Shown here piece by piece: positions 37,056 to 53,880 of a stretch of 64,000 bases of DNA (positions within the stretch are counted from its first letter, which is position 1; each line of letters opens with the position of its first letter). The DNA comes from Candidatus Thiothrix anitrata. GTDB lineage: Bacteria > Pseudomonadota > Gammaproteobacteria > Thiotrichales > Thiotrichaceae. Made by a program: the position numbers and the translations under genes. The notes under the pieces are model-generated. The model saw only the letters and a list, made by a program, of their open reading frames with translations. It searched no databases and had not been told where the DNA came from. The stretch covers positions 3,437,283-3,501,282 of the forward strand of contig NZ_CP072800.1 of NCBI RefSeq assembly GCF_017901155.1. The letters are read 5' to 3'.

Positions 37056-37084
37056 AAAAAAAGGCCAGCACGTGGCTGGCCTTT
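37056..37084 (-). terminator. Rho-independent terminator after the SdrD-like gene
   Basis: AAAGGCCAGC, a 5-base loop and GCTGGCCTTT form a 10-bp stem (37060-37084). On the minus strand it is followed by a T-run reaching 37056. It isolates the surface-protein block from the leu operon. Confidence 0.87.
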
Positions 37085-37112: not shown

Positions 37113-40100
37113 TTAATCCTCCCGACGACGGCGAAAGAACGCTACCACTGCCAATAACATACTCATAATCGCCAGCCCCCAAGTGTTCGCCGTCGGGATT
37201 TGTACATGTGGTACAAAGCCACAATCGACACTACGGTTAGTGTTCGCGTCACTATCACCGTCATCAGTGGGTTCTGTACCTGCCTTCAGGGTAAACAGTG
37301 AAGTGGAACCATCAGCTGCGCAATTGCTGTCATCATTCGCCGAATTATCATCAACACTCCCACCGCTTTTGGTGAAAATGTTATACAGGCTTGGTGGTAT
37401 AGCCACGATACGATATTCACCTTCAGGGAGATTATCGAAGAAATAGCTACCATCCGGCTTAGTCACCTGTGTCGCGATGACATTGCCTTCCTTATCCAGC
37501 AACTTCACTGTCACATCACCTAAACCTGGTTCGCCGGGATCTTGCTTGCCATCACCATCTAAATCAACCCACATTTTATCGCCCACTGCCACGGTTTCTG
37601 GTTCAGCAGGTGGTGGCAGAACACCAAAATCCAGCGTGAGATTAGATTGCTCATCGACTGTACCCTTACCATCTTCACCGGGCTTTCCGTTGGCAGTATC
37701 GGTTTCACCAGTTGGCTCATCTACTCCCAAAGTGATCACTGTAGTGTTACAAATACCATCTTGGTGAACGTCATCGCCATTGTCGTTGTTATCCACATCA
37801 TCGTTCGGATCAAGCTCATTACCACCGGTACTTGCGGTGTAATTTGCCAGCAATCCAGTTGCGGCGAAATTACCCGGTGCAATACACACACGATAGTCTC
37901 CCGCTTCCAGATTATCGAATAAGTAGAATCCATTGACTGTTGTGGTACTGGCCAGATTTTGCGACGGCTCTGTGGTATTCCACAATTCCATGCGTACACC
38001 ATCGACCACGGGTTTTTCGCCAGTATCCATTTGACCGTTGTTAGCATTGACCGCTGTACCGTTACCATCGTCAATCCACACTTTATTGCCGAGGCTGTGT
38101 TTAACTACCGGAATCGGAGTTGGATAAAAACCACAGTCAATGGTCAAATCGCCGTTGGCATCATCGCCGTCAACTTCTGACTCCTGACCAGCCATCAAAC
38201 TGAAAGGCTCAGTGCCACCCAAGTCTGCCTCGCAGTTACTATCGTTATTAGCAGCGTTACTATCAGGGTCACCAACAGATTTTGTCAGCGTATAACCTAC
38301 AGCTTGTACTTTAATAATGTATTCGCCTTCGGGCAAATCAGAGAATAAATATTTACCATCTTCGCCAGTAATTTGTGACGGAATAGCCATGTCACCACCG
38401 ATCACCACCGGAGAGCCGTCTTTATTCAACAGCGTAACTTCTGCACCTTTCAATGGCAATTCTTCAGGGTCTTGCAACCCGTCTTGATCTGCATCAATCC
38501 AGATGTAATCACCGACGCTAACGCTTTTCTTTGGCGGTGATACAACCCCGAAATCAATCGTGAGGTTGGAACGGTTATCTGGTGTACTTTTACCATCATC
38601 ACCGTCATTGTTATCGGTAAACCCAAGCTCATTCAATGGTTCTTCATCATTCAACTCGACGAGATTGGTACAAATATCACCAGATACATCATCATCACCG
38701 TTGTCGTCACCATCAATACCCCGGTTATCCACACCACCGATATTAGGATTCTCTTTTTGATTTGGACCTGTACTCGCCAAGTAACCTGCCAATTTGCCAT
38801 CCACCGCAAAGTTTTCTGCTAGGACACACACTTGGTAGCTACCTGCACCCAGACCACTAAATAAATAGCGACCATGTGCATCGGTCTCTGTATCGCCGAT
38901 CGTAATTCCACCGTCATCTTTCAGGATCAGCTTAATACCAGCACCTGCATTCTCTTCACCAACATTTGCGTCACCGCTATTGTCTGCATCAATCCAGACG
39001 CGGTTACCGATGCTATACGTTGGTGCGACTGTTGGAATCAAACCGCAGTCTTGGGTCGGGTCGTTGTTGGCATCGTCGTCACCGTCGTCAATTTCTGCGC
39101 CAATCGCGAGGTTGATACCGCTGATTTTGCCGTCAGCCGTGCAATTGCTGTCAATTTTACCATCAGTGCCTTCGTTGATTTTGGTGAAGTCGTAGCCTGC
39201 GGGTTTGGTGACTTCAATGAGGTAGTCGCCTTCCGGCAGATTGACGAACTGATAGTTGCCGTTAACATCGGTTTGTTGTGCCGCAACGTCAACGCCATTG
39301 ATGTCTTGGGCAGGGCTGCCATCGGCTTTTTTGAGGGTAACGGTGACGTTAGCCAGCAGTTTGTCGGTGACTCCGCCTTGTTTGCCATCACCATCAACGT
39401 CTTCCCAGATGGTGTCGCCGACACTGACACTAGGCGTGGGTAGTTTGACTAAACCGCAGTCTTGGGTCGGGTCGTTGTTGGCATCGTCGTCACCGTCGTC
39501 AATTTCTGCGCCAATCGCGAGGTTGATACCGCTGATTTTGCCGTCAGCCGTGCAATTGCTGTCAATTTTACCATCAGTGCCTTCGTTGATTTTGGTGAAG
39601 TCGTAGCCTGCGGGTTTGGTGACTTCAATGAGGTAGTCGCCTTCCGGCAGATTGACGAACTGATAGTTGCCGTTAACATCGGTTTGTTGTGCCGCAACGT
39701 CAACGCCATTGATGTCTTGGGCAGGGCTGCCATCGGCTTTTTTGAGAGTAACGGTGACGTTAGCCAGCAGTTTGTCGGTGACTCCGCCTTGTTTGCCATC
39801 ACCATCAACGTCTTCCCAGATGGTGTCGCCGACACTGACACTAGGCGTGGGTAGTTTGACTAAACCGCAGTCTTGGGTCGGGTCGTTGTTGGCATCGTCG
39901 TCACCGTCATCAATTTCTGCGCCAATCGCGAGGTTAATACCGCTGATTTTGCCGTCAGCCGTGCAATTGCTGTCAATTTTACCATCAGTGCCTTCGTTGA
40001 TTTTGGTGAAGTCGTAGCCTGCGGGTTTGGTGACTTCAATGAGGTAGTCGCCTTCCGGCAGATTGACGAACTGATAGTTGCCGTTAACATCGGTTTGTTG

Positions 40101-40988
40101 TGCCGCAACGTCAACGCCATTGATGTCTTGGGCAGGGCTGCCATCGGCTTTTTTGAGAGTAACGGTGACGTTAGCCAGCAGTTTGTCGGTGACTCCGCCT
40201 TGTTTGCCATCACCATCAACGTCTTCCCAGATGGTGTCGCCGACACTGACTGTCGGTGGCGGAGGCAACCTAACCCCAAAATCGACAGTCAGATTTGAGC
40301 GATTATCCGGTGTACCCTTGCCATCATCACCATCTAGCAAGTTTGTGAATCCCAATTCATTGAGTGGTTCTTGATCATTTAACGTGAACGTATTGGAGCA
40401 AATACCATCTTCCACGGTATCTTCGCCATTATCATGCTCATCCTCATCGCTATCATCTGGATCAATTTTCTGGTTTACACCAGTACTAGGCAAATAGCCG
40501 ACCAATTTACCAGTACCCTCAAAGTTTTCCTTAAGAATACACACCTGATAATCACCGGCCGCCAAATCACTGAACAGATAACGTCCCTCTGTGTCCGTTT
40601 CAACCGGCTCACCAACTTGCACACCACCATCATCTTTCAGAATGAGTTTCACACCAGCACCGACACCCACCTCACCAACCGTAGCATCACCACTATTATC
40701 GGCATCAATCCATACAAGGTTGCCAATGCTGTAAGTCGGAATCGCTTCAATCGTCACTGGTGAGCAGGCTTCGTCATCCTCCAAGGTCTTAGGTTCGGCG
40801 TTAAATCCGCTCAGCAATTCTGCCTCGGTTTTATTACCCGGATCTGAATCTATATCCGTTTCGTTAGCCTTGCTCACCTGAGCGCAGTTGGTAACAACAT
40901 CTGCCGCCCACACAGGATTCATTGACGACAAGACACCGACCGCACAAAAGGTCAGCAACAAAGGTTTCATACCTGTCATTTTTTTCAT
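37113..40988 (-). CDS. Large secreted SdrD B-like repeat protein with IPTL-CTERM tail
   Basis: The 1291-residue protein has a signal peptide (MKKMTGMKPLLLTFCAVGVL...VWA), a short Cys-containing N-domain, then eight B-type (prealbumin/Cna-B-like) modules. Two kinds alternate: longer ones opening YSIGN.VWIDADNSGDA and shorter ones opening SVGDTIWEDVDGDGKQGG. DxDxDG loops in each suggest calcium binding. Three shorter modules in a row are nearly identical (411-bp units). The C-terminus has an IPTL-CTERM-type sorting signal: IPTANTWG, a hydrophobic helix and RRRRED. Such tails are cleaved by exosortase-like (XrtH) systems in proteobacteria; no exosortase is in the window. It is probably a cell-surface or sheath structural protein, 125 bases after the DUF11 gene and closed by a terminator. 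Confidence 0.9.
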   Translation of the reverse strand: MKKMTGMKPLLLTFCAVGVLSSMNPVWAADVVTNCAQVSKANETDIDSDPGNKTEAELLSGFNAEPKTLEDDEACSPVTIEAIPTYSIGNLVWIDADNSGDATVGEVGVGAGVKLILKDDGGVQVGEPVETDTEGRYLFSDLAAGDYQVCILKENFEGTGKLVGYLPSTGVNQKIDPDDSDEDEHDNGEDTVEDGICSNTFTLNDQEPLNELGFTNLLDGDDGKGTPDNRSNLTVDFGVRLPPPPTVSVGDTIWEDVDGDGKQGGVTDKLLANVTVTLKKADGSPAQDINGVDVAAQQTDVNGNYQFVNLPEGDYLIEVTKPAGYDFTKINEGTDGKIDSNCTADGKISGINLAIGAEIDDGDDDANNDPTQDCGLVKLPTPSVSVGDTIWEDVDGDGKQGGVTDKLLANVTVTLKKADGSPAQDINGVDVAAQQTDVNGNYQFVNLPEGDYLIEVTKPAGYDFTKINEGTDGKIDSNCTADGKISGINLAIGAEIDDGDDDANNDPTQDCGLVKLPTPSVSVGDTIWEDVDGDGKQGGVTDKLLANVTVTLKKADGSPAQDINGVDVAAQQTDVNGNYQFVNLPEGDYLIEVTKPAGYDFTKINEGTDGKIDSNCTADGKISGINLAIGAEIDDGDDDANNDPTQDCGLIPTVAPTYSIGNRVWIDADNSGDANVGEENAGAGIKLILKDDGGITIGDTETDAHGRYLFSGLGAGSYQVCVLAENFAVDGKLAGYLASTGPNQKENPNIGGVDNRGIDGDDNGDDDVSGDICTNLVELNDEEPLNELGFTDNNDGDDGKSTPDNRSNLTIDFGVVSPPKKSVSVGDYIWIDADQDGLQDPEELPLKGAEVTLLNKDGSPVVIGGDMAIPSQITGEDGKYLFSDLPEGEYIIKVQAVGYTLTKSVGDPDSNAANNDSNCEADLGGTEPFSLMAGQESEVDGDDANGDLTIDCGFYPTPIPVVKHSLGNKVWIDDGNGTAVNANNGQMDTGEKPVVDGVRMELWNTTEPSQNLASTTTVNGFYLFDNLEAGDYRVCIAPGNFAATGLLANYTASTGGNELDPNDDVDNNDNGDDVHQDGICNTTVITLGVDEPTGETDTANGKPGEDGKGTVDEQSNLTLDFGVLPPPAEPETVAVGDKMWVDLDGDGKQDPGEPGLGDVTVKLLDKEGNVIATQVTKPDGSYFFDNLPEGEYRIVAIPPSLYNIFTKSGGSVDDNSANDDSNCAADGSTSLFTLKAGTEPTDDGDSDANTNRSVDCGFVPHVQIPTANTWGLAIMSMLLAVVAFFRRRRED
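39040..40250. repeat. Three near-identical 411-bp tandem repeats inside the SdrD-like gene
   Basis: Units start at 39040, 39451 and 39862, with an exact 411-base period (137 residues); the third is cut short of the period at about 40250. By eye, units 1 and 2 differ at one base and units 2 and 3 at two, all apparently silent. The array is coding, so copy-number change by recombination would add or remove whole modules in frame. Confidence 0.93.
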
Positions 40989-41113
40989 TATGGTGGATCT
41001 CTTATTTTTTAGTTATTGCACCACGCCAACGCGCTCAACGCCGACCATGCTTTATCGGCCTAACCCTACCACAGGTCGTGATAGGGCTGTATTAATTCCC
41101 GAAGAACGGTTCT

Positions 41114-41452
41114 TTAATTGATAATAGTGATAATTTTTAAGATTTTTTGCTGTCCTGCTGATAAATCACCAACAACCCAAACACCCGTTGCACTGTTATA
41201 TTGCCCAGCCTCCTCATTATCACCGATATAACTTAAACCACCGGGTAATAAATCAGTAACATTCACCGCTGTTGCGACCGTATCACCTTTGTTCGCAGCA
41301 ATAATGGTGTACTCTACGGTATCACCGCTGTTTACACGGGTTTTATCCACACTTTTGGTAATTTCAACATCGGCAGCGGCGTAAGCCATACCCGCTCCAC
41401 ATAACATCATCACCCCCACACAACGTGCAAGGTATTGCTGATAGTGCTTCAT
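41114..41452 (-). CDS. Small secreted stand-alone DUF11 domain protein
   Basis: The 112-residue protein has a signal peptide (about 1-25, ending AYAAA) followed by one DUF11 Ig-like domain: VEITKSVDKTRVNSGDTVEY, ANKGDTVATAVNVTDLLPGG and GVWVVGDLSAGQQ. DUF11 domains are usually building blocks of large surface proteins, so a single-domain secreted form is unusual. The ribosome binding site GGAGG lies inside the 3' end of the GH18 gene, with the ATG 2 bases after its stop. The domain matches the C-terminal ends of the two FGE-like proteins upstream. Confidence 0.85.
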   Translation of the reverse strand: MKHYQQYLARCVGVMMLCGAGMAYAAADVEITKSVDKTRVNSGDTVEYTIIAANKGDTVATAVNVTDLLPGGLSYIGDNEEAGQYNSATGVWVVGDLSAGQQKILKIITIIN

Positions 41453-41454
41453 TA

Positions 41455-42648
41455 TTAGTTTCCTCCGGCGGCTAAGGCATTACGAATACTGTGCATAATT
41501 TCACGGCGTTTATTACCCGTTTGTGCGGCACGGTAATCCAACTGTAAATGCCAAATCATTGCGCCGCCCAATTGCATTTTCTTCACGTATTGGATTTTTT
41601 CTGCCACCGCTCGCGGATCATTAAATGAGATAAACTGATCGTCTGCGTCATTTTCCGTATCAATGCTGAGATAACCCATTTTTGCCACATCATCCCAATG
41701 ATACTGACCTTGCTGGTAACGGTTATCCATAAGCTGTGCATAGCTTTCCAGAGGAGTTCCGCTAGTCCATTCTTGCGGTACACTCGTCCATGTTTGAAAC
41801 GGTGCAGTTGCGCCTCCGGTAGCTGTGCCAGCACCGCCTTGCCAGATACGGATTTCAAAACTCATCCCCAAACCCAACTTATCACGCGGCACACCCGCAT
41901 CCAGCAATTGCTTGATGTAACCGTCCACCGATGACACTTTACCGCCGGTACTGGGGTAAGTTTTACCGCCGTCATACAACGCTGCATCGTGCCAAGTAAT
42001 CTCTTCCCAGCGAGTCGCCATGTTGTAAAACATGATATTGATCTGATCAAACTTGGTGTGTAAATGTGACAGCACCGTTTTTGCTCGGTGATCGGCAGCA
42101 ACAGTCAAGAGCGGAGGACGTTGTAACAATGCTGAAGTTTTTTGTTGCATCGCCGCGTGTAAGGCATTGATGAACACTTCGTAATCAGGATTTTCAGTCT
42201 GACCCCATGAGACAATCGGTTCAAGATCAATGTCTAAACCGTCATACCCCTCATCCAAACGTGCTAATAAATCATTAATCAAAGCCTGACGCTTAACAGG
42301 GTCGGCTAATACCGGTTTATGGATATTTTCCCACGCCACCACACTAAACAATATTGGGCGATTTTTGCTGTGTGCCAACTCAATGGCTTTTTGACGCTTC
42401 GTTAGCTCCATGCCGTTACCGTTATAGGTTAATGTCCCGGTATTAGGATCAATTTCTGAAGCGAAATGCACCACATGAGTAAGCATTTCCCAATCCGCAT
42501 CATCCATGTAAGCTGCATTACCCGCTCCGTCTTGGGTATAACCGGGCAAATAACCCGTTACCCACGGCGTAGCCGCCATTCCAGGGTTTGCCCACATTAA
42601 CCAGCACAACCCGGCAAGGGCGCACGCTTTCATCCAAGGTGTTTTCAT
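41455..42648 (-). CDS. Secreted glycoside hydrolase family 18 (chitinase-like)
   Basis: A 397-residue protein with a signal peptide (ending PGMAA) and a single GH18 TIM-barrel: WVTGYLPGYTQ at the start, HVVHFASEID, and the catalytic DxxDxDxE motif as DGLDIDLE, with E143 as proton donor and D141/D139 in place. IMFYNMA and GGAMIWHLQLD complete the barrel. GH18 enzymes cleave beta-1,4-GlcNAc polymers such as chitin or related glycans; the substrate here is open and could be the cell's own sheath polysaccharide. The ATG shares a base with the preceding stop (TAATG), so it is coupled to the FGE/DUF11 gene. Confidence 0.93.
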   Translation of the reverse strand: MKTPWMKACALAGLCWLMWANPGMAATPWVTGYLPGYTQDGAGNAAYMDDADWEMLTHVVHFASEIDPNTGTLTYNGNGMELTKRQKAIELAHSKNRPILFSVVAWENIHKPVLADPVKRQALINDLLARLDEGYDGLDIDLEPIVSWGQTENPDYEVFINALHAAMQQKTSALLQRPPLLTVAADHRAKTVLSHLHTKFDQINIMFYNMATRWEEITWHDAALYDGGKTYPSTGGKVSSVDGYIKQLLDAGVPRDKLGLGMSFEIRIWQGGAGTATGGATAPFQTWTSVPQEWTSGTPLESYAQLMDNRYQQGQYHWDDVAKMGYLSIDTENDADDQFISFNDPRAVAEKIQYVKKMQLGGAMIWHLQLDYRAAQTGNKRREIMHSIRNALAAGGN

Positions 42649-45600
42649 TAGTCAGCCCTCACTGTGATCATTAATTTAACCGGTACACCATTCGCCACCT
42701 TACCGACAGTCCAGATGCCACTGGCTGCATCATAACTGCCACGTTCGGCTTGGCTGCTCACATAGGTTAAACCTGCTGGCAACTGATCTTGCACCTGCAC
42801 ATTGCTGGCATCATCGGGGCCTTTATTCACCAGCGTCAGGGTATAAACCAACGTATCACCACGCTTGACCGTCGTCATACTGGCGGTTTTCACCAACTCC
42901 AGATCGACTTGTGGTGACGTTGAACAGTTCGCCCCCAAAGCAGCACCGTCTTCGTTATTACCCGGATTTTGATCCGTACTGCTTTGTGCTGAGACATTCG
43001 CTTTATTGATAACCGTGACACAAGACGGTGGCGGTGCAGAACACGACGCAGGTGGAGTCAAAGCAACATTGTTCAACTGACAACTGGCCTTGTTACTGTC
43101 GGCCAAGGTCGCTGTCACCGCCCCGCCACTGATCAAAAAGTTACCGTAAGTACCCGATTCCACGCCGTAAGGCACGTCTTGCACCGCTAATGTACCGGCC
43201 TGAATATCGTAGGTTGGAGCAACAAACACCCCCGATGTATTGATACGGAAACCAAACGTATCATCCGCCGCACTGCTCGTGCCATTGCTATAACATTGCG
43301 TGGTGACAACCGGCGTATTAATCGCACAATCACCCTCCAGCGGATTCAACACGCTCACAGACACGGTGCTATCACCCGCAATCGTGACCGATGCAGGAGT
43401 AATCACCGCAGTGCCGTAGCTGTAACCTGCTGGCGGTGTTGGCTGCGTTGGCTCTGTCACCGTACAGGTCGTACCGTGAGGAATATTGCTGATGGTTTTG
43501 TTTTCAGCCGCTTTAATCAGCACATCTTGGTCAAAGCTGTCATCTGAACAGTCCACCCTCAAGGTGTAATCAGGGCTGGTAAATCCGGCGGGCTGCCCAC
43601 TTACCGATTTACCCAACTGCAAACTACCGAGCTTTAGGGTTAATGGATTAGTCACCGTCACCGCAATGGTTGTGCCATTACCAATCGTCTGCGCACCACT
43701 GGGCGTAATGACGGGCGTGCCGTAATCATAACCTGCGGGTGCGGCTGGCACTGTCGGCTCTGTCACGGTACAGGTCGTGCCGGTCGGAATACTGTTAATG
43801 GTTGCAGTAGCACCATCAGCAACGGTCAATGTCTGGTCAAAGCTATCCACAGAACAATCCACCACCACTGAGAAATTAGGGCTAGTAAAACCGACCGGTT
43901 TGCCTGTCACTGCTTTCGTAACACTCAATGAACCTGTCGGTGCAGCAGCAACACTCAATGGCGTTGACCCGGAACAGGTTTGCCCTGCAACCGTGGTACT
44001 CGCTGTTACCGTTGCATTACCGGTTGCACTGGGCGTACCAGATACCGCCCCCGTTCCGGCATTAACGCTCATACCCGTAGGCAATCCAGCAGCACTCCAT
44101 GTATAAGTATATGGCCCTCCGCTACTGGCATTCGCTGACGGACTCGCATTGTAAGCCACACCCACCGTGCCATTCGGTAACGGATTCGGAGTAACGTTAA
44201 TCGTCGGGCAACTCACCGAGTTAAGCGGATTCGTTACCACCACTTCGATCGTGGTATTCGCTACAATCGTCTGCGCACCACTCGGCGCAATCGCAGGTGT
44301 GCCGTATTCGTAGCCAGCTGGTGCGGTTGGTAGTGGCGTAGTTTCCGTCACACTACAGGTCGTACCGACAGGGATATTGGTAATATCGCGTGTTGCACCA
44401 TGCGCCAACGTAAAGTTTTGATCGAAAGCGTCATCCGAACAATCTACCGCTATATTGAAATTCGGGCTGCTAAATCCTGCCGGAGGATTCGTCACTGTTT
44501 TCCGCACCCGTAACGTACCTGTCGGCGAACAACTCCCCGTGTCACTGATCGTCGCTGTACGGGTACAACTGCTGTTAGTTGCATCGGTGGCGGTCAAGGT
44601 ATACACCGTTCCATTGCCAGCCGAGCCGTTTTGTAGGCGGAAATTGGTTGCCGTACCGTAACTACCCGAAGTTGGGGTTACGATTCCACCATTATTGACG
44701 CTGACATTGTAGGTAGCTGCAACACCCGTACCCGTCAAATTCAATGCGAAGGTGCGGTAATCATCTGTGGCACTTCCAGTAGTACCATTGTTATTACATA
44801 CAGGAGCGATGGTGAAACTGTTAATAGAACAGGCTGCTTGCAGGGGGTTGGTGACTGTTACAGCTACAGTCGAGCCGTCACCCGGCACCGTGATATTTGC
44901 GGGACTAATGATTGCGGTTCCATAGGTGTACCCACTAGGCGCACCTGAAGGAGGCGTTTCTGTAACCGTACAAGTTGTTCCCTGCGGCATAAAGTCGGAT
45001 ACAGCAGTTTGACCGTGTTTTAGAGTAAAGGTTTTGTCATACAGCGTGCCAGCACAATTCAAGTTAATCGTGAAGTTACGGGTAGCATCACTGCCACCTG
45101 TAACTTGCTTGGTAATGCTGATCCGCGCAGATAGCTGGGCAACACCCATCCACACCCGGTAGCCGACACTCAAATAACGTCGCCCCGCATCCAGAGTTTG
45201 ACGGGTGTTCTTACTCGAATCAGACAGATTACCAAATGCGGATGCACCGCGCAGAATGGTTGTCCCTGTAGCACCGGGATTCAACGTGGTTTCGTGCCGG
45301 TTTCCCCCAAAGTCATAAATCCCCCAAGGATTTCCAGTTTCCTGACCAACTTGTGCATATAACCCTCCCCCATTACTAAAGACACCCGTTAATGCCCCGC
45401 CAACATTAGAATCATGCAAGCCAGTATTGACACTAGACGTTGCTAAAGCGGGAGTACCACTACCCAATGGATAAGTATAATAAGTATTAGTTGTCCCTGC
45501 TCTACGATACATGGCTTTGTAAAGCTCATCTTCCAAAGGTAAGCGCGGCCCCGGATAAGCACCATTGAAAGAGGCAATTGGCCAGTTACCTTTTGGTCCA

Positions 45601-46139
45601 CCATCATTTGTGAAAGTGAATGCCCCAGAATCAATACTACCTGTTGCCATCCAGTTCAGATAACGAGCTACGTTATTCAAAGAACGCCAATCGACAGGAA
45701 GTTTAGCTGCATCCGATGCACTCAAACTCATGCCATTTTGATTAAACGACGTTACTTGCCAACTACTCCCAGAATAGGCAAACGGTGAATAACACCAAGG
45801 GTTGTCACAATCAGGGTGGGATGTGGTCATTGGACCTAAACCCAAATCATTAGAACCCGTAGCCCCAATGTCATTCAGAAAATCCACCCAGTCCTGTACG
45901 GTAATCTGGGTCGCACTCACCATGTAAGAGTAGGGCACTCCACCGTATCCAGTCGAGTCGCCCGCATTTCCCGGATTGCCAACGACTACGAAATTATCGG
46001 CATACGATGGCGCTGGAACACCAGCGGGTGGTGTATAAGACTCCGCGCTTGCATGTTGGGCAGCAATCACGCACAACATACCCGTTACAATAGCCACGGA
46101 GTGGCGTATTGTTCCCAGTAACTTTTTTATACCCGTCAT
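42648..46139 (-). CDS. Large secreted FGE-like, DUF5979-repeat, DUF11 protein
   Basis: From ATG 46139 the product has 1163 residues; a TTG at 46157 would add six. After a signal peptide comes an FGE-sulfatase/SUMF1-like domain (about 30-320) with ITVQDWVDFLNDIGATGSND, VARYLNWMATG, PRLPLEDELYKAMYRR, GNPWGIYDFGGNRHETTL and YRVWMGVAQ. Four DUF5979-like beta modules follow, each with an F-[ST]-[IV]-x-[CD]C core and PxGTTCxVTE, mixed with two Cys-containing Ig-like modules and one putative He_PIG domain (LPNGTVGVAYNASPSANASS). A single DUF11 domain ends the protein exactly at the stop, with no membrane anchor. A surface or matrix role is inferred; catalytic residues of true formylglycine enzymes are not evident. 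Confidence 0.87.
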   Translation of the reverse strand: MTGIKKLLGTIRHSVAIVTGMLCVIAAQHASAESYTPPAGVPAPSYADNFVVVGNPGNAGDSTGYGGVPYSYMVSATQITVQDWVDFLNDIGATGSNDLGLGPMTTSHPDCDNPWCYSPFAYSGSSWQVTSFNQNGMSLSASDAAKLPVDWRSLNNVARYLNWMATGSIDSGAFTFTNDGGPKGNWPIASFNGAYPGPRLPLEDELYKAMYRRAGTTNTYYTYPLGSGTPALATSSVNTGLHDSNVGGALTGVFSNGGGLYAQVGQETGNPWGIYDFGGNRHETTLNPGATGTTILRGASAFGNLSDSSKNTRQTLDAGRRYLSVGYRVWMGVAQLSARISITKQVTGGSDATRNFTINLNCAGTLYDKTFTLKHGQTAVSDFMPQGTTCTVTETPPSGAPSGYTYGTAIISPANITVPGDGSTVAVTVTNPLQAACSINSFTIAPVCNNNGTTGSATDDYRTFALNLTGTGVAATYNVSVNNGGIVTPTSGSYGTATNFRLQNGSAGNGTVYTLTATDATNSSCTRTATISDTGSCSPTGTLRVRKTVTNPPAGFSSPNFNIAVDCSDDAFDQNFTLAHGATRDITNIPVGTTCSVTETTPLPTAPAGYEYGTPAIAPSGAQTIVANTTIEVVVTNPLNSVSCPTINVTPNPLPNGTVGVAYNASPSANASSGGPYTYTWSAAGLPTGMSVNAGTGAVSGTPSATGNATVTASTTVAGQTCSGSTPLSVAAAPTGSLSVTKAVTGKPVGFTSPNFSVVVDCSVDSFDQTLTVADGATATINSIPTGTTCTVTEPTVPAAPAGYDYGTPVITPSGAQTIGNGTTIAVTVTNPLTLKLGSLQLGKSVSGQPAGFTSPDYTLRVDCSDDSFDQDVLIKAAENKTISNIPHGTTCTVTEPTQPTPPAGYSYGTAVITPASVTIAGDSTVSVSVLNPLEGDCAINTPVVTTQCYSNGTSSAADDTFGFRINTSGVFVAPTYDIQAGTLAVQDVPYGVESGTYGNFLISGGAVTATLADSNKASCQLNNVALTPPASCSAPPPSCVTVINKANVSAQSSTDQNPGNNEDGAALGANCSTSPQVDLELVKTASMTTVKRGDTLVYTLTLVNKGPDDASNVQVQDQLPAGLTYVSSQAERGSYDAASGIWTVGKVANGVPVKLMITVRAD

Positions 46140-46170
46140 ATTTATTATCAGCCCCAATCAACAATGTTGT

Positions 46171-47742
46171 TTAATTCACGGTCACATCAATCGTCAGCGT
46201 CACCACATCATCTTTTGCCAACGCCCCGACAGCCCATATACCCGTATCCTTGTCATACGTACCCGTGACTGTCGCATGAGCAACATACGTGACTCCGGCT
46301 GGCAACTGATCTGTGGCTTCTACACCTGTCGCCGCCCCCGGCCCCTTGTTAGTCAAGGTAATGGTGTAACGCACGGTATCACCTGATGCAACATTCGATT
46401 TATCTGCCACTTTGGTGATTTCTAAATCAACATCCTGTGCCACAGCAGGTTGCAAAGGGTTGGTAACGGTAATCAGCTTCGGATTATTCGCCTCAATCGT
46501 TACTGTTTGCCCCGGTGCGTATTGCGCCGCGCCGTAAGTGAAACCTGTCGGAGCCGTTGGTGTTACCTCGGTCACAGTACATTGTGTGCCGACAGGAATC
46601 GCATCGGATTCGTAAGTTTCATTGTGTTTAACGAGGATGCCAGTCTTGTCAAAATTATCGCCAGCACAATCCAGATTGAAACTGAATGATTGCGGGTCTG
46701 TACCGTTTGTTACTTCTTTTTTGATACGTAACACCCCGGAAGGCGCGGAAACCCCCATCCACACCCGGTAGCCGATACTCACATAACGATTGCCTGCGGC
46801 TAAAGTATCGCGAAAATCATACTTTGATGCAGACACCGCCCCAAATGCCGCAGCACCGCGTAAAATGGTCGTGGTAGGCGCACTAGGCTCCAAAGTGGTT
46901 TCATGGCGATTCCCTGCTGTATCAAACACCCCCCACGGATTGCCAGTTTCCTGCCCCACTTGTGCATAGTGCATAGTTCCGCCATAACCCGGAACTAATG
47001 CGCCACCCGCATTACTGTTATGAATGCCACTGGCATCAATTCCAGCCAATACTGGCGTACCATCTCCCTGTACGTTATTAGTGGGATAATCGTTATACGC
47101 TTGCTTTGCCTTATCCCAGAACATAGCCTTGTATAACTCGTCTTCCAACGGCAACCGTGGCCCAGGATAGTTCGCATCAAAACTGGTAATGCTTACGTTG
47201 CCAGAGGTCGTGTCACTGAAGGTAAAAGCCCCTTGGTTAATATTCCCGGTCGCCAACCAGTTCATGTAGCGAGCCACCATATTCAAAGACAACCAATCAA
47301 TCGGTAATTTCGCCGCTTCTGTCGCCGACATCGCCATACCATCTTGGTTAAACGGTGTCACACTCCAAGTGCCACCACTATGGGTATACGCAGCAAAGCA
47401 AAAGTCATTTCCGCAACTTGCCCCAATCGGTCCAAACCCCATCGAATTACCCGGATCAACAGCATTCAGGAACGCCACCCAGTCACCCACAGTAATTTGC
47501 GTCTGACTGACTCGGTACTTATACCCCACACCACCATAGTTACCTGCACGGTTATCATCAGGATTACCTGCATCATCAATCACCACAAAACTATCGGCAA
47601 ATGACGGTTTTGGCACACCAGCAGGCAAGGTCATAGAATCAAGTGCATACGCGGACGAACTGCCCACAAACAGCATTGCCACACACACACCGATAGCGAA
47701 GGATGAGCGTTGCAACGCCCATGATTGGTTGGTCGTTTTCAT
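46171..47742 (-). CDS. Secreted FGE-like, DUF5979, DUF11 protein
   Basis: This 523-residue paralogue of the next gene has the same plan in short form: signal peptide (cut near SSAYA), FGE-like domain (about 30-325; ITVGDWVAFLNAVDPGNSMG, PRLPLEDELYKAMFW, GVFDTAGNRHETTLEP, YRVWMGVS), one DUF5979-like module (PVGTQCTVTEVTP) and a C-terminal DUF11 domain (VDLEITKVADKSNVASGDTV). The ATG at 47742 is preferred because AGGGG lies 8 bases upstream; an ATG at 47760 has no such site. It is first in the block and ends 31 bases before the larger paralogue starts. Confidence 0.88.
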   Translation of the reverse strand: MKTTNQSWALQRSSFAIGVCVAMLFVGSSSAYALDSMTLPAGVPKPSFADSFVVIDDAGNPDDNRAGNYGGVGYKYRVSQTQITVGDWVAFLNAVDPGNSMGFGPIGASCGNDFCFAAYTHSGGTWSVTPFNQDGMAMSATEAAKLPIDWLSLNMVARYMNWLATGNINQGAFTFSDTTSGNVSITSFDANYPGPRLPLEDELYKAMFWDKAKQAYNDYPTNNVQGDGTPVLAGIDASGIHNSNAGGALVPGYGGTMHYAQVGQETGNPWGVFDTAGNRHETTLEPSAPTTTILRGAAAFGAVSASKYDFRDTLAAGNRYVSIGYRVWMGVSAPSGVLRIKKEVTNGTDPQSFSFNLDCAGDNFDKTGILVKHNETYESDAIPVGTQCTVTEVTPTAPTGFTYGAAQYAPGQTVTIEANNPKLITVTNPLQPAVAQDVDLEITKVADKSNVASGDTVRYTITLTNKGPGAATGVEATDQLPAGVTYVAHATVTGTYDKDTGIWAVGALAKDDVVTLTIDVTVN

Positions 47743-47962: not shown

Positions 47963-48724
47963 ATGTTGCAAGCTATACGCACTTACGGGTTGATGGTTTT
48001 TATTGCTGCCTTACTGATTAGTTCCCTCCTCCAAGTATGGACGGGGAAACCAGTAGCTATTTTATTAGTCACCCTAGCTTTTGCCGTATTCAGTGCGGTG
48101 AACTATCAGCGTGCGTCCTGCACACAAGCCGATTGGCAGACAGTGCGTCGCCCCCCTGATTTGTGGCTCACGATCTTAGGTAAAGGGGTGTTCTGGGGCA
48201 TTACGCTAACCTTGCTGATGCTGCAAGAACAAATCTGGCCTTGGCTGGGTTTTGTGTTCTTTTTTGTCTTAACCAGTTGGCGGATGGCGGCACTGCCACA
48301 AACACACATTGAAACGGGGCTGATACCCGTCGGCGCGTTAGGTGTCATGGGCAGTGTTCTCGCCTTGGGACTGCCGCTTTCTACTGCGGTATACGTTGGC
48401 ATCATGAGTTTGTTAGGTGCGATGGGTGCTTTATTCATCATGCCGTTGCAAGCCCTGCTGACTTACCTCGCCACCCCGGAGCACCAAACCAAAGCCAGCA
48501 GCATTGATGTGCTGACCCAAACCCTGATCATGTTGCTGTTTACCAGTAGCTGCGCATTATTGCTGTGGTTAGGGCTAGACACGCCTGTGTTACTGACGGC
48601 GTTGAGTTTAGTCACCGTGATGGGCACGTTGTATACCATTTACCAAATGCCGCAATCGTTGCTGCGCTATGTGTTTAGTCGCCTATTTCATGCGCGTTAC
48701 CGCTCTGAAAGTCTTGGGGTTTGA
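47963..48724 (+). CDS. Membrane N-terminal part of an LplT-Aas-type fusion, separated by a frameshift
   Basis: The 253-residue product has about six membrane segments and matches the C-terminal half of an MFS transporter as found fused ahead of Aas in many proteobacteria (GAMGALFIMPLQALLTYLAT). A strong GAGGAGG ribosome binding site precedes the ATG. Its last residues (LRYVFSRLFHARYR) are the start of the acyltransferase domain, after which the frame shifts: one extra base near 48703-48706, compared with the second copy at 51691, ends this frame at 48724. Before the shift the two parts would have formed one protein of roughly 960 residues. It may still act as a separate membrane subunit. Confidence 0.75.
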   Translation: MLQAIRTYGLMVFIAALLISSLLQVWTGKPVAILLVTLAFAVFSAVNYQRASCTQADWQTVRRPPDLWLTILGKGVFWGITLTLLMLQEQIWPWLGFVFFFVLTSWRMAALPQTHIETGLIPVGALGVMGSVLALGLPLSTAVYVGIMSLLGAMGALFIMPLQALLTYLATPEHQTKASSIDVLTQTLIMLLFTSSCALLLWLGLDTPVLLTALSLVTVMGTLYTIYQMPQSLLRYVFSRLFHARYRSESLGV

Positions 48725-50855
48725 ACATTTGCCTGCATCCGGCGGGGTGTTATTGCTGGGCAATCACATCAGTTTCATTGACTGGGCATTGGTGCAAATG
48801 GCAAGCCCGCGTCAATTGCATTTCGTGATCGAAAAAGGCTATTACGAACGTTGGTATTTAAAAGGTTTCCTCAACTGGTTCGGGGTAATCCCGATCAGCA
48901 GCGGAGCGAGTGCGGATTCGCTGGAAAAAGTCACAGAAATGCTCAAAGCCGGTGAAGTGGTGTGTTTATTCCCCGAAGGCACGATTAGCCGTACCGGGCA
49001 GTTGTCCGAATTCAAGCGTGGTTATGAGAAAGCGGTGAAAGGCACGGGCGCGGTGATTGTGCCGTTTTACCTGCACGGTTTGTGGGGCAGCCGGTTTTCA
49101 CGTTCCAGCGGCTTTTTGCGCGAAAATCGCCAGTCCGGTTTCAAGCGTGACATCGTGGTGTCGTTTGGCAAAGCCTTGCCGGAAACCATTCCCGCGCACG
49201 AATTGAAACAGAAGGTGTTTGATTTGTCGTTTGCGTCGTGGGAGGCGTATTCGCACCTGATCGACCCGATTCCGGTGAACTGGTTGCGTGCGGCCAAGCG
49301 CATGAGTTTCCGCATGGCGGCAGCAGATGTGATCGGCGAACCGTTGAGCCATCACCGTTTTATGACAGCGGTGTTCCGCTTTGCGGTGCTGATTAAAAAG
49401 CTTAGCCCAGAACAGAATATTGGCTTGTTATTACCCACCAGCTCGGGTGGGGCGATTGCGAATATGGCGGTGCTGACGCTGGGTAAAACCATTGTGAATC
49501 TGAATTTTACCGCCAGCAGCGAATCGATCCATAGCGCGGCGCAGCAGGCGGGCTTGCAACGGGTTTACACCTCCAAACGTTTTCTGGATAAGCTGAAAGA
49601 GCGTGGGATTGATATTCCGGCGATTTTGCCTGACACCCCGTTGACGTTTTTGGAAGATTTGAAAGCGGAAATTCCCAAACACCAATTGCTGACTACGCTG
49701 TTGATGGTGATGTTATTGCCAACCCGTTTATTGCAGTGGTTGTACATTCCGAAAATTGACTTGGATGCGACGGCGGCGATTCTGTTTTCCAGCGGCAGCG
49801 AAGGTGCGCCCAAAGGTATTGAGCTTTCCCATCGCAATCTGGCGGTGAATGCGCGGCAGGTGGCGGATGCGCTGAATACGCTGGATAACGATGTGATCAT
49901 GGGGACATTACCGACGTTCCACGCCTTCGGTTTGCTGGCGAGCACGCTGATGCCGTTGTCGGAAGGCATTCCGATTGTGTGTCACCCCGACCCGACCGAT
50001 GCGGTGAATATTGCCAAAGGTGTGGCGCGTTATGAGGCAACCTTGCTGTTTGGCACAGGGACGTTTTTGCGTTTGTATGCGAAAAATTCGCGTGTGCATC
50101 CGCTAATGTTCCAATCGTTGCGCTATGTGGTGGCGGGGGCGGAAAAACTGGCACCGGAAGTGCGTCGCTTATTTCTCGATAAATTTGGCAAGAAATTGCT
50201 GGAAGGTTATGGCGCAACTGAAACATCACCCGTTGCCAGCGTGAATTTGCCCGATCAGCTTGATACCCGTTACTGGAAAGTACAGGCAGCGAACAAAGAA
50301 GGCACGGTGGGTTTGCCATTGCCGGGAACGAGTTTCCGCATCGTTGACCCTAATACGTTGGAAACTTTGCCGACGGGTGCGGATGGCTTAATCCTGATCG
50401 GTGGCCCGCAAGTGATGAAAGGCTATTTGAATGCGCCGGAAAAAACCGCGCAAGCGATTGCCGAACTCGACGGGCAACGCTGGTACAAAACTGGCGACAA
50501 GGGACATGTGGATGAAGACGGCTTCCTGACCATTGTTGATCGCTATTCACGCTTTGCCAAACTCGGCGGGGAAATGGTGAGCTTGACTGCCGTTGAACAC
50601 CAAGTGCGGCAAATTTTGGGCGATGCGGAACTGGAATTAGTCGCGGTCAATCTGCCCGATGATAAGAAGGGCGAAAAGATCGTGTTACTGATGGCGGGCG
50701 CGTATGACGAAGCGGCGGTGAAACGCAAACTATTAGAAGGCGGGATGAATTCATTGGCGATTCCATCAACGATTCGCAGTCTGGCGGAGATTCCGAAGTT
50801 GGGAAGTGGCAAGACGGACTTTGGGTCGGCACGGAAGGTGGCGGAGAGTTTATAG
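48669..50855 (+). CDS. aas: Acyltransferase / acyl-ACP synthetase (Aas-like), copy 1
   Basis: The 728-residue product is close in length to E. coli Aas (719), which reacylates lyso-phosphatidylethanolamine and activates fatty acids on ACP. The PlsC domain shows LLGNHISFIDWALVQM (HxxxxD) and CLFPEGTISRTGQLSEFK. The AMP-binding domain shows AAILFSSGSEGAPKGIELSH, YVVAGAEKLAPEV, GYGATETSPVASVNLP and WYKTGDKGHVDEDGF, ending with the catalytic-Lys region LGSGKTDF. Only its first dozen residues are out of frame relative to the ancestral fusion, so it can be functional. It begins a 2.9-kb segment duplicated at 51691. It overlaps the upstream membrane part by 56 bases. Confidence 0.88.
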   Translation: MCLVAYFMRVTALKVLGFEHLPASGGVLLLGNHISFIDWALVQMASPRQLHFVIEKGYYERWYLKGFLNWFGVIPISSGASADSLEKVTEMLKAGEVVCLFPEGTISRTGQLSEFKRGYEKAVKGTGAVIVPFYLHGLWGSRFSRSSGFLRENRQSGFKRDIVVSFGKALPETIPAHELKQKVFDLSFASWEAYSHLIDPIPVNWLRAAKRMSFRMAAADVIGEPLSHHRFMTAVFRFAVLIKKLSPEQNIGLLLPTSSGGAIANMAVLTLGKTIVNLNFTASSESIHSAAQQAGLQRVYTSKRFLDKLKERGIDIPAILPDTPLTFLEDLKAEIPKHQLLTTLLMVMLLPTRLLQWLYIPKIDLDATAAILFSSGSEGAPKGIELSHRNLAVNARQVADALNTLDNDVIMGTLPTFHAFGLLASTLMPLSEGIPIVCHPDPTDAVNIAKGVARYEATLLFGTGTFLRLYAKNSRVHPLMFQSLRYVVAGAEKLAPEVRRLFLDKFGKKLLEGYGATETSPVASVNLPDQLDTRYWKVQAANKEGTVGLPLPGTSFRIVDPNTLETLPTGADGLILIGGPQVMKGYLNAPEKTAQAIAELDGQRWYKTGDKGHVDEDGFLTIVDRYSRFAKLGGEMVSLTAVEHQVRQILGDAELELVAVNLPDDKKGEKIVLLMAGAYDEAAVKRKLLEGGMNSLAIPSTIRSLAEIPKLGSGKTDFGSARKVAESL

Positions 50856-51290
50856 GCGATAATCCCCATGTTCTTCGTGAATCTTTAACGGTTTGTACGG
50901 CAATGCCAGTTGTTGGCATTGCACCGTTTCAAACTCAGGGTCTTTATGCACCAGTGTCGCGCCTTGCAGCAACGCACTGGCGGCAATCCACGCATCTGCC
51001 AGTGAAACCCGGCAGGTGGCTTTGAGTTCCGCCGCCTTTTCCAACAATTCCGGCGACTCACGAATCCAGTCGATAGGCAGAGATTTGCACTGCTCATACG
51101 CCAGTCGCCCAGCCTGCTCCCCCTCATTCTTCCAAACACGATAGAGAATTTCCATCTGGCTCATGAAACAGGCAAACACTTTCGCCTGCCCATATTGGCA
51201 TTGTTGAAGAATGTCAGCGACAGTATTTACGCCCTCTTCATCATCACGCAAGGTCAGAAGTGCGGAAGTATCCAGCAAGTAACGTTTCAT
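50850..51290 (-). CDS. vapC: PIN domain toxin (VapC-like), copy 1
   Basis: This 146-residue PIN-fold ribonuclease toxin has the expected acidic residues: D7 in YLLDTSALLTL, E47 in MSQMEILYRV, D99 in LADAWIAASALL and D117 in VHKDPEF. It overlaps the AbrB-type antitoxin gene by 4 bases (ATGA) and converges with aas copy 1, whose stop it overlaps by 6 bases. The second copy differs by very few residues (for example EEGV versus EEGA). Confidence 0.92.
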   Translation of the reverse strand: MKRYLLDTSALLTLRDDEEGVNTVADILQQCQYGQAKVFACFMSQMEILYRVWKNEGEQAGRLAYEQCKSLPIDWIRESPELLEKAAELKATCRVSLADAWIAASALLQGATLVHKDPEFETVQCQQLALPYKPLKIHEEHGDYRL

Positions 51291-51514
51291 TCACGCTCCC
51301 GGTCAAAAGCACGATCTGCCAGCAATTGGGCGGTAGAGCCTTTACGCTTGCTGCTGCCCCGGAAAGCATCAATAGGATTTTCCTGCACCGGAATGACACG
51401 GATGGTGTTGTTCTCAATCACCCATTCCAGACGATCCGCAGCGGAAAGGTGGAAGAAACGCCGGACTTCGGCGGGGATGACGGTTTGCCCACGGGAAGTG
51501 ATGGTGCTGCGCAT
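51287..51514 (-). CDS. vapB: AbrB/MazE-type antitoxin (VapB-like), copy 1
   Basis: The 75-residue protein starts with the swapped-hairpin AbrB DNA-binding fold (MRSTITSRGQTVIPAEVRRF, ADRLEWVIENNTIRVIPV) and ends with a flexible basic/acidic toxin-neutralising tail. AGGAG lies 7 bases before ATG 51514; a longer open frame to 51640 is not supported. Directly upstream is a perfect inverted repeat that probably serves as its operator. Confidence 0.9.
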   Translation of the reverse strand: MRSTITSRGQTVIPAEVRRFFHLSAADRLEWVIENNTIRVIPVQENPIDAFRGSSKRKGSTAQLLADRAFDRERE

Positions 51515-51525
51515 AGCGGCACTCC

Positions 51526-51558
51526 TTGAATTACTTAATTGCAAAAATGGTAATTCAA
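51526..51558. promoter_or_regulatory. Inverted-repeat operator of vapBC copy 1
   Basis: TTGAATTAC (51526-51534), 15 bases and GTAATTCAA (51550-51558) form a perfect 9-bp inverted repeat beginning 11 bases upstream of the antitoxin ATG. Position and symmetry fit an autoregulatory AbrB-type operator. The duplicated segment ends at its outer edge. Confidence 0.7.
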
Positions 51559-51578
51559 GCATTGCGGTAATACAAGCG

Positions 51579-51689
51579 TCAATGCCGCCACATTTCATCA
51601 AGCTGTGCGTACCAACGATCCCGCTCCTCCACCAGCGCATCCAGCCCCTCCGTTAACTCCAGCTTTTCACGCCGCCAGATTTCGTTGCG
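51579..51689 (-). pseudogene. C-terminal remnant of an unidentified gene between the duplicated copies
   Basis: A frame ending at the TGA 51581-51579 reads as 36 protein-like, charged residues (IWRREKLELTEGLDALVEER, DRWYAQLDEMW) and runs into the junction with copy 2 at 51691, where the family context is lost. It looks like the tail of a gene truncated by the duplication. The family is not recognised and no start is available. Confidence 0.35.
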
Positions 51690-51690
51690 A

Positions 51691-53880
51691 TGCGCTATGT
51701 GTTTAGTCGCCTATTTCATGCGCGTTACCGCTTGAAAGTCTTGGGGTTTGAACACCTGCCTGCATCCGGTGGGGTGTTATTGCTAGGCAATCACATCAGT
51801 TTCATCGACTGGGCATTGGTGCAAATGGCAAGCCCGCGTCAACTGCATTTCGTGATCGAAAAAGGCTATTACGAACGCTGGTATTTAAAAGGTTTCCTCA
51901 ACTGGTTCGGTGTCATTCCCATCAGCAGCGGGGCAAGTGCGGATTCGCTGGAAAAAGTCACGGAAATGCTCAAAGCGGGCGAAGTGGTGTGTTTATTCCC
52001 GGAAGGCACGATTAGCCGCACCGGGCAGTTGTCCGAATTCAAGCGCGGTTATGAAAAAGCGGTGAAAGGCACGGGCGCGGTGATTGTGCCGTTTTACCTG
52101 CACGGTTTGTGGGGCAGCCGGTTTTCACGTTCCAGCGGCTTTTTGCGCGAAAATCGCCAGTCCGGTTTCAAGCGTGACATTGTGGTGTCGTTTGGCAAAG
52201 CTTTGCCGGAAACCATTCCCGCGCACGAGTTGAAACAAAAGGTATTTGATTTGTCGTTTGCGTCGTGGGAAGCCTATTCGCACCTGATCGACCCGATTCC
52301 GGTTAATTGGCTGCGGGCGGCAAAACGCATGAGTTTCCGCATGGCAGCGGCGGATGTGATCGGTGAACCGTTGAGCCATCACCGTTTTATGACGGCGGTA
52401 TTCCGGTTTGCGGTGCTGATTAAAAAGCTTAGCCCGGAACAGAATATCGGCTTGTTATTACCCACCAGCGCGGGCGGGGCGATTGCGAATATGGCGGTGC
52501 TGACGCTGGGCAAAACCATTGTGAATCTGAATTACACCGCCAGTGGCGAGTCGATCCACAGCGCGGTGCAGCAGGCGGGCTTGCAACGGGTTTACACTTC
52601 CAAGCGTTTTCTGGATAAGCTCAAAGAACGTGGGATTGATATTCCGGCGATTTTGCCTGACACCCCGTTGACGTTTTTGGAAGATTTGAAAGCGGAAATT
52701 CCTAAGCACCAATTGCTGACTACGTTGTTGATGGTGATGTTATTGCCAACCCGTCTGTTGCAGTGGTTGTACATTCCGAAAATTGATTTGGATACGACGG
52801 CGGCGATTCTGTTTTCCAGTGGCAGCGAAGGTGCGCCCAAAGGCATTGAGCTTTCCCATCGCAATCTGGCAGTGAATGCGCGGCAGGTGGCGGATGCGCT
52901 GAATACGCTGGATAACGACGTGATCATGGGGACATTGCCGACCTTCCACGCCTTCGGTTTGCTGGCGAGTACCCTGATGCCGTTATCGGAAGGTATTCCG
53001 ATTGTGTGCCACCCGATCCGACCGATGCGGTGAATATCGCTAAAGGTGTAGCGCGTTACGAGGCAACCTTGCTGTTTGGCACGGGAACGTTTTTGCGCTT
53101 GTATGCGAAAAATTCCCGCGTACATCCGCTGATGTTCCAATCGTTGCGCTACGTGGTGGCGGGGCGGAAAAACTGGCACCGGAAGTGCGCCGCCTGTTCC
53201 TCGACCGTTTCGGCAAAAAACTGCTGGAAGGCTATGGCGCGACTGAAACCTCGCCGGTTGCCAGCGTGAATTTGCCCGATCAGCTCGATACCCGTTACTG
53301 GAAAGTACAGGCAGCGAACAAAGAAGGCACGGTGGGTTTGCCATTGCCGGGAACGAGTTTCCGCATTGTTGACCCGAATACGCTGGAAACCTTGCCGACG
53401 GGTGCGGATGGCTTGATCCTGATCGGTGGCCCGCAAGTCATGAAAGGCTATTTGAATGCGCCGGAAAAAACCGCGCAAGCGATTGCCGAACTCGACGGGC
53501 AACGCTGGTACAAAACCGGCGACAAGGGGCATGTGGATGAAGACGGCTTCCTGACCATTGTTGACCGCTATTCGCGCTTCGCCAAACTCGGCGGGGAAAT
53601 GGTGAGCTTGACAGCGGTTGAACAGCAGGTGCGGCAAATTTTGGGCGATGCGGAACTGGAATTAGTCGCGGTCAATTTGCCGGATGATAAAAAAGGCGAA
53701 AAGATCGTGTTACTGATGGCGGGCGCGTATGACGAAGCGGCGGTGAAACGCAAGCTATTAGAAGGCGGGATGAATTCATTGGCGATTCCATCAACGATTC
53801 GCAGTCTGGCGGAAATTCCGAAGTTGGGAAGTGGCAAGACAGACTTTGGGTCGGCGCGGAAGGTGGCGGAGAATTTATAG
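51691..53880 (+). pseudogene. aas: Aas-like acyltransferase / acyl-ACP synthetase, decayed copy 2
   Basis: This is a truncated duplicate of the aas gene. The first frame (from about 51690, stop 53033) carries PlsC and the start of the AMP-binding domain. A one-base loss in a C-run near 53012-53014 turns CHPDPTDA into CHPIRPMR and stops. The next frame continues to a second one-base loss in a G-run at 53161-53164 (VVAGAEK becomes VVAGRKN), and the remainder is open to 53880. The three pieces are each highly similar to copy 1 (48669-50855). Both losses are in homopolymers, so sequencing error should be excluded before calling it dead. Confidence 0.85.

Follow-up and report, generated by a model that had tools for sequence, protein, structure and literature searches.

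A split DUF11 (CLIPPER) domain that may join separate surface proteins in Thiothrix

Introduction

Why should three proteins encoded in one run of genes all finish with the same domain, and finish before that domain is complete? The question is posed by a locus of Candidatus Thiothrix anitrata, contained in a stretch of 64,000 nucleotides that we call the window (its source is referred to as the own genome). All five genes of the locus lie on the minus strand, in the order P1 (46171-47742), P2 (42648-46139), GH18 (41455-42648), P4 (41114-41452) and gene 5 (37113-40988). A preliminary description of this DNA had read the DUF11 domain at the end of P1, P2 and P4 as a shared device for docking or secretion. 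The docking part of that reading fits the results below; we propose, with a probability of roughly 0.6 and on sequence evidence, that a split DUF11 domain joins separate surface proteins and is probably sealed by a Lys-Asn bond.

DUF11 (PF01345) is the family described in 2025 as CLIPPER, which is CnaA-like and carries a Lys-Asn isopeptide bond with a presumed catalytic Asp (PMC12617251). In the following, a catcher is a terminal DUF11 body that ends early, and a tag is an N-terminal segment resembling the remaining DUF11 strands.

Results

Terminal DUF11 domains end early and keep Lys and Asp

Pfam analysis bore out that P1, P2 and P4 each finish with a single DUF11, with scores of 87.6, 89.5 and 83.8 bits against the curated cut-off of 24.6. 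They had been described as ending exactly with the domain, which holds for the end position and not for a whole domain: the matches cover profile positions 1-84 of 114, and each protein stops one residue after position 84. DUF11 was found in 13 open frames of the own genome (Pfam, E up to 0.001), of which the eight best-scoring stop at the same point, within 2 residues, which is more than chance would give. Seven proteins of named relatives were also compared with Pfam; DUF11 closes six of them, the match stopping at position 84 in four and at 85 in two, and the seventh carries IPTL-CTERM and no DUF11.

A larger set of 79 terminal copies was collected from the genus and from four genomes of the same family (G019, G025, G031 and G033). 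A copy was picked when its protein stopped no more than 2 residues from the domain, at loci matching P1 or its DUF11; the copies were therefore not sampled at random, so they give no rate, and 8 of 13 frames in the own genome remains the unbiased figure. Lys is present in 79/79 copies and Asp in 76/79, with Glu in the other three, and the later strand with the bonding Asn is found in 0/79; among 47 representatives at 70% identity, Lys is kept in 47 and Asp in 46. The 29 internal DUF11 copies have Lys in 24, Asp in 27 and Asn in 24. For comparison, an outside DUF11 model of 131 positions was built from 34 complete domains at 20 loci in other families of the class, 12 of the 34 coming from two proteins. 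Catchers end at positions 83-86 of this model in 78 of 79 cases. At 28 control loci outside the family, the chain continues for at least 34 residues past the last matched DUF11 body in 23; three others run off the fetched stretch and two end within 2 residues.

The bonding Lys and catalytic Asp of CLIPPER are both found in the three window proteins. The P1 catcher (46174-46431, minus strand) has Lys444 (codon from 46413) and Asp478 (codon from 46311), numbered from the ATG at 47742, and the chain stops 45 residues past Asp478. The P2 catcher (42651-42908, minus strand; Pfam and AlphaFold2) has Lys1090 and Asp1124, numbered from the TTG at 46157 with which the open reading frame (ORF) list begins; the start used for P2, ATG 46139, was picked by eye. 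P4 (41114-41452, minus strand) consists of a signal peptide and the bare catcher, of which Lys33 and Asp67 align with the Lys and Asp of 9ifr (phmmer, E 0.077).

The very last residue, which is Asn in P1 and P4, was considered as the bonding residue and ruled out, because it varies among the 79 copies (Lys 31, Asn 26, Asp 10, Gln 8, Pro 3 and Glu 1) and because complete domains have their Asn one strand later.

The missing strands occur at the N-termini of other proteins

Gene 5 begins, at the mature N-terminus (cleavage placed by eye), with a tag at 40743-40904 on the minus strand, ADVVTNCAQVSKANETDIDSDPGNK, which contains Asn34 (codon 40889-40887), Cys35 and Cys75. It is of the same kind as the tag of linker proteins in congeners, in which, over about 510 residues, the signal peptide is followed by a segment resembling TVTNCAQVSATIETDTDSTP; after it come GEVED, a complete DUF11 and a catcher at the C-terminus. 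With a matrix of the internal Asn strand, applied leave-one-out per protein, the N-terminal segment is the runner-up among all windows of the protein in 12 of 13 linkers and takes fourth place in the other. A similar segment starts proteins of named relatives that end IPTL-CTERM-like, as confirmed by Pfam for one of them.

The outside model places the gene-5 tag at positions 91-121 with 12.3 bits, a score equalled by 0/200 of its own shuffles. Altogether, 31 tag rows fall at about positions 89-129, with the consensus Asn at 96; they represent 30 genes, the window gene being counted twice (L090 is the same gene), and the search that collected them used similarity to residues 1-80 of gene 5, with its signal peptide. 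All 200 own shuffles are beaten by 27 of these rows, the scores of the other four being reached by 1, 1, 5 and 1 shuffles, and 21/31 exceed the best of 6200 pooled shuffles (12.1 bits); as the rows are mutually related, the shuffles are not independent tests. The model was also run over 275 ORF N-termini, taken from the window together with 28 loci of the genus and of G019. Its C-terminal part is matched at 6 bits or more by 21, all of which bear the tag motif, out of 22 motif-bearing N-termini in total; nine further N-termini reached 6 bits by matching other parts of the model. Across 13 chosen diverse tags, the only invariant residues are the Asn and the two Cys.

In a reverse search, a profile of the 13 tags was run against 18 genomes at E 0.05 and matched seven of them, strongly in the own genome and G019, then in G135, more weakly in G278 and G373 and marginally in G031 and G025. 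In the tandem DUF11 proteins of G135, it matches 18-27 bases after 12 of the 14 listed DUF11 bodies. Complementary halves on separate proteins are thus found by sequence, and the independent model, the N-terminus search and the reverse search make it very likely that a single domain is divided between tag and catcher.

Structure models

In an AlphaFold2 model, the P2 catcher has seven strands with a predicted local distance difference test score (pLDDT) of 93-98 over fragment residues 51-130. It matches 9ifr residues 18-109, a CnaA-like fold, with Z 9.2 and a root-mean-square deviation of 2.2 over 88 aligned residues. The complete internal domain of the linker matches 9ifr residues 18-140 with Z 12.4, tied with integrin rows, and has an extra strand, 316-328, in which its Asn is sited. 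The bonding Asn806 would correspond to 9ifr residue 118 (our own numbering), past the end of the catcher. The seven-strand model, set against the extra strand of the complete domain, agrees with a missing end; a fold match by itself indicates no function. A Foldseek search with the 470-residue linker was uninformative, returning mostly integrin-like chains with template modelling (TM) scores below 0.3.

Gene 5 as a candidate anchored acceptor

Gene 5 (37113-40988, minus strand; Pfam) is composed of the N-terminal tag, eight SdrD_B stretches and an IPTL-CTERM sorting or anchor motif (PF18203; 37122-37199, minus strand; 26.6 bits against a cut-off of 20.8), and is proposed to be an anchored acceptor. 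XrtH, the exosortase that pairs with IPTL-CTERM, is encoded elsewhere in the own genome (TIGR04177, 200.4 bits against 86) and is present in 16/16 genomes of the genus. Exosortase_EpsH (PF09721) had no match in the own genome, where XrtH was detected by its own model instead.

At 39040-40250 of the window, in the SdrD_B region, a 411-base unit is repeated in tandem 2.9 times, almost without differences (99% matches). The counterpart in the congener G010 is longer, with an open frame of 1578 against 1299 residues; together, the tandem units and this longer frame suggest that stalk length may vary by recombination.

Distribution of tags and catchers

The tag search was positive for 17 of 57 genomes, namely all 16 of the genus (the own genome included) and G019 of the same family, and a gene with a terminal DUF11 adjoins a tag gene in 17/17 of them (15/15 congeners). 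The five-gene order, whose conservation the preliminary description had made a test of its reading, was found in only one of 15 congeners, G010. The conserved unit is the tag/catcher gene module, not the whole order. Other P1 counterparts occur only in G003, where the gene is interrupted, and in G004, where it contains stops; GH18 matches in these genomes lie far away. In G003 (G003:C1:1578679-1581677), about 1.4 kb with an opposite-strand frame of 450 residues breaks the P1 counterpart. The FGE-bearing catcher may be decaying in these relatives.

A second anchor/catcher pair was noticed in the own genome at L012:1088-17554 (G000:C1:2867587-2884053), where a protein of 4783 residues, with an N-terminal tag, about 20 DUF7507 stretches and IPTL-CTERM, is followed by a catcher protein with GEVED. 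The tag of the long protein is weak (2.7 bits; 5/200 own shuffles as good). In another family of the class (L177, L178 and L179; genomes G278 and G373), four proteins have catchers 1-2 residues from their ends; no N-terminal tag was found within the stretches fetched. Truncation of DUF11 may therefore be of wider use.

Passenger domains of the catcher proteins

P1 (46171-47742, minus strand; Pfam) consists of a signal peptide, an FGE-type head with an inferred C-type-lectin-like fold, one DUF5979 stretch and the terminal catcher. P2 (42648-46139, minus strand) has an FGE-type head, four DUF5979 stretches, He_PIG and, immediately preceding its catcher, an orphan strand unit at 42924-43022 (minus strand), CVTVINKANV...GANC with Asn1051 (again numbered from 46157), which scores 13.3 bits and reaches model position 118. 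P1, P2 and P4 had been described as having no membrane anchor; no anchor family was matched in them in Pfam, and no membrane-helix predictor was run. The T9SS (type IX secretion system) C-terminal domain was likewise absent from the Pfam matches of the window proteins; T9SS machinery was not searched.

Activity as a formylglycine-generating enzyme (FGE) was set aside for P1 and P2. The catalytic Cys pair of FGE, which sits between the RGG and GFR motifs, is missing, as no Cys occurs between RGA(A/S)AF and GYRVW in either protein (RGAAAF ... GYRVW in P1, with zero Cys between). A third FGE + DUF5979 paralogue of the own genome lies outside the window (L017:5713-10401; G000:C1:2755712-2760400); it is fused to a PilY1-like C-terminus, has a PilW gene nearby and resembles a tip protein of type IV pili. 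Its match to the PilY1 beta-propeller reaches 19.7 bits, below the cut-off of 28.1, and it has two Cys in the corresponding interval. The same head on a PilY1-like protein, together with the lack of FGE cysteines in P1 and P2, would fit an exchangeable binding head.

The enzyme GH18 (41455-42648, minus strand; Pfam and motif) is chitinase-like, has a signal peptide (by eye) and lacks DUF11; its DxxDxDxE motif reads DGLDIDLE at residue 136, and the family match scores 141.6 bits.

Locus layout

P1 and P2 are separated by 31 bases. The TAATG coupling of P2 and GH18 and the GAGGG within the 3' end of P2, both mentioned in the preliminary description, are present in the sequence, and the GH18/P4 junction is TAATAATG. 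The genes of the operon described there stand, whereas its end at 41114 does not: gene 5 follows on the same strand after 125 bases, and a five-gene order in fact requires it. A strong intrinsic terminator was found only after gene 5 (37060-37084, minus strand). The interval between P4 and gene 5 contains an imperfect inverted repeat, CCCTATCAC...GTGGTAGGG, at 41064-41086, seen by eye only and without a T run.

Elsewhere in the window, at 48706-53400, an acyltransferase/AMP-binding gene is partially duplicated in tandem, with a spacing of about 3026 bases and matched stretches 91-94% identical. The second copy is split into two frames, and the duplication flanks a PIN-domain and MazE-type antitoxin pair at 50850-51640.

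Discussion

We propose that the domain is shared out between two kinds of protein. The catcher proteins P1, P2 and P4 would contribute strands one to seven, on which the bonding Lys and the catalytic Asp are placed; tag proteins (gene 5, and the linkers in congeners) would open, directly beyond the signal peptide, with the final two strands, bearing the Asn and a pair of Cys. The catcher sandwich would be completed by these tag strands in the envelope; that the halves assemble in trans is likely on the sequences compared here. The Lys-Asn isopeptide bond would most likely form spontaneously, as in whole CLIPPER domains. A covalent bond between the halves is probable, since the Lys (79/79) and Asp or Glu (79/79) of the catchers and the Asn of the tags (13/13) are exactly the bonding set. 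Gene 5 would be held to the cell through its IPTL-CTERM end, probably processed by XrtH, and would present its tag at the free, far end, receiving either P1 or P2, with their FGE heads outward as possible adhesins, or P4. As a catcher without cargo, P4 would cap gene 5 or compete for it, in keeping with the role of competitor suggested earlier for this stand-alone protein. Linkers, which carry both a tag and a catcher, would extend the chains, and GH18 would be a passenger enzyme of the operon, perhaps in matrix or wall remodelling. Two DUF11 domains probably do not form the pairing surface, contrary to what had been supposed, because the terminal DUF11 copies lack the Asn strands and those strands are found at other N-termini, including that of gene 5; such pairing is not needed for docking.

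Several results weigh against this proposal. Three terminal copies carry Glu in place of Asp, and two of the five internal copies without Asn retain Lys (with Asp or Ser at the place of Asn), so that retention of Lys is no proof of a bond; two others have lost both Asp and Lys and one is uncovered at the Lys position. The similarity of P4 to 9ifr is by sequence alone not significant (E 0.077), the Lys-Asp spacing in 9ifr is 34 in the phmmer alignment against 33 by the numbering of the paper, and a profile of the linkers (A1) matched no sequence of the Protein Data Bank (PDB). The fold match of the P2 catcher is tied in Z with mu-adaptin chains, the orphan strands of P2 are not confidently docked on its own catcher (pLDDT 36-55), and the two tag strands of the linker model (2-9 and 44-51) form with a pLDDT of only about 62-73. 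At E 0.05, the tag profile found nothing in G050, G114, G201, G274 and G400, all of which bear DUF11, and the reverse test therefore rests on G135; in the family of G278 and G373, catchers are accompanied by weak, unplaced matches to the profile. The own genome has two tags for eight catchers. Finally, in 8 of 60 single-DUF11 catcher proteins, P2 included, the strands that the catcher lacks stand just before it on one polypeptide, and these proteins may close in cis.

The same complementarity of halves would be expected if the strands were donated in trans without a covalent bond, Lys and Asp being kept for the stability of the fold only. The bond is indeed missing in some DUF11 domains, as stated in the CLIPPER report (PMC12617251), the Cys pair of the tag could give a disulphide instead, and Lys persists in the two Asn-less internal copies mentioned above. 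The retention of the full bonding set in catchers and tags speaks against this account, as do the two internal copies in which Lys has gone together with Asn and Asp, and we consider it unlikely. Closure in cis, by which strands such as those of P2 would complete their own catcher as a circularly permuted domain, leaving closed monomers of which only some assemble, draws on the eight proteins whose match, up to model positions 118-122, lies just before the catcher. P2 itself may close in this way. As a general account it is highly improbable, given that 52 of the 60 proteins, P1 included, have no such match above 5 bits, that P4 has no room for one and that AlphaFold2 gave no confident docking in P2.

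Alternatively, the truncated DUF11 could be a C-terminal secretion or sorting signal for some export machine and perhaps be cleaved off. Its position at the exact C-terminus of unrelated passengers would suit such a signal, and a route across the outer membrane has still to be explained; a signal of this kind leaves unexplained both the missing strands at the mature N-termini of neighbouring genes and the retained Lys and Asp, which makes it distinctly doubtful. DUF11 is common in stalks (PMC12617251), so the terminal copies might be ordinary stalk domains that happen to end early and have no partner. In 78 of 79 copies, however, the end point is confined to a span of four model positions, and most chains outside the family (23/28 loci) continue for at least 34 residues; to this last explanation we give next to no credence.

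SpyTag derives from a CnaB-type domain; sortase-built Gram-positive pili are surface polymers held together covalently, whose subunits serve as anchor, backbone or tip; and in chaperone-usher and type V pili an incomplete immunoglobulin fold is completed non-covalently by a strand of the next subunit. The proposed split DUF11 system would share the incomplete fold and the partner strand with the latter pili, its proposed step being covalent instead. With sortase pili it would share covalent chains and the division of roles, but its joining step would need no sortase, and the anchor would be IPTL-CTERM with XrtH. Chaperone-usher and type V pili are named as cases of donor strand complementation in the report on archaeal threads of Saci_0406 (PMC9715654). 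These threads are likewise head-to-tail filaments with donor strand complementation and a proposed intermolecular isopeptide bond via the N-terminus, linking the amine at the N-terminal Asp24 with Asn57 of the second subunit along (PMC9715654); here, it would run from a side-chain Lys to the Asn of a split DUF11, and the heads are different.

Compared with the CLIPPER structure 9IFR, the family is the same, Lys and Asp are in the same places and the fold matches, whereas the Asn and the last strands are here on another protein, the CLIPPER bonds described there (PMC12617251) lying within one chain. SpyTag/SpyCatcher (PMC6539128) is likewise an isopeptide domain in two pieces, one bearing the Lys and the other a short strand that holds its partner residue, with an engineered split; the split found here is genomic, in a CnaA-like domain, with a two-strand tag and two Cys, and one linker carries both ends. 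Sporesilk auto-crosslinking fibres reportedly also use an autocatalytic intermolecular isopeptide bond, in their case with an alpha-helical hairpin fold. Among the literature matches listed for an open library, there was no report of a split DUF11/CLIPPER acting between proteins, and no useful match for DUF11 with Thiothrix or for a Thiothrix holdfast or sheath.

If correct, the proposal would mean that an engineered protein glue in wide use has an equivalent in nature, in which the roles of anchor, extender, head and cap can be read from sequence alone. It would also provide new tag/catcher pairs, such as P4 with a segment of about 55 residues. Scattered 'DUF11 proteins' would become one assembly system, and a Gram-negative filament former would have a sortase-free route to covalent surface structures. 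The chances are about even that Thiothrix-type bacteria possess a genome-encoded, sortase-free ligation in which split CLIPPER domains would weld anchors, extenders, heads and caps into covalent polar surface chains.

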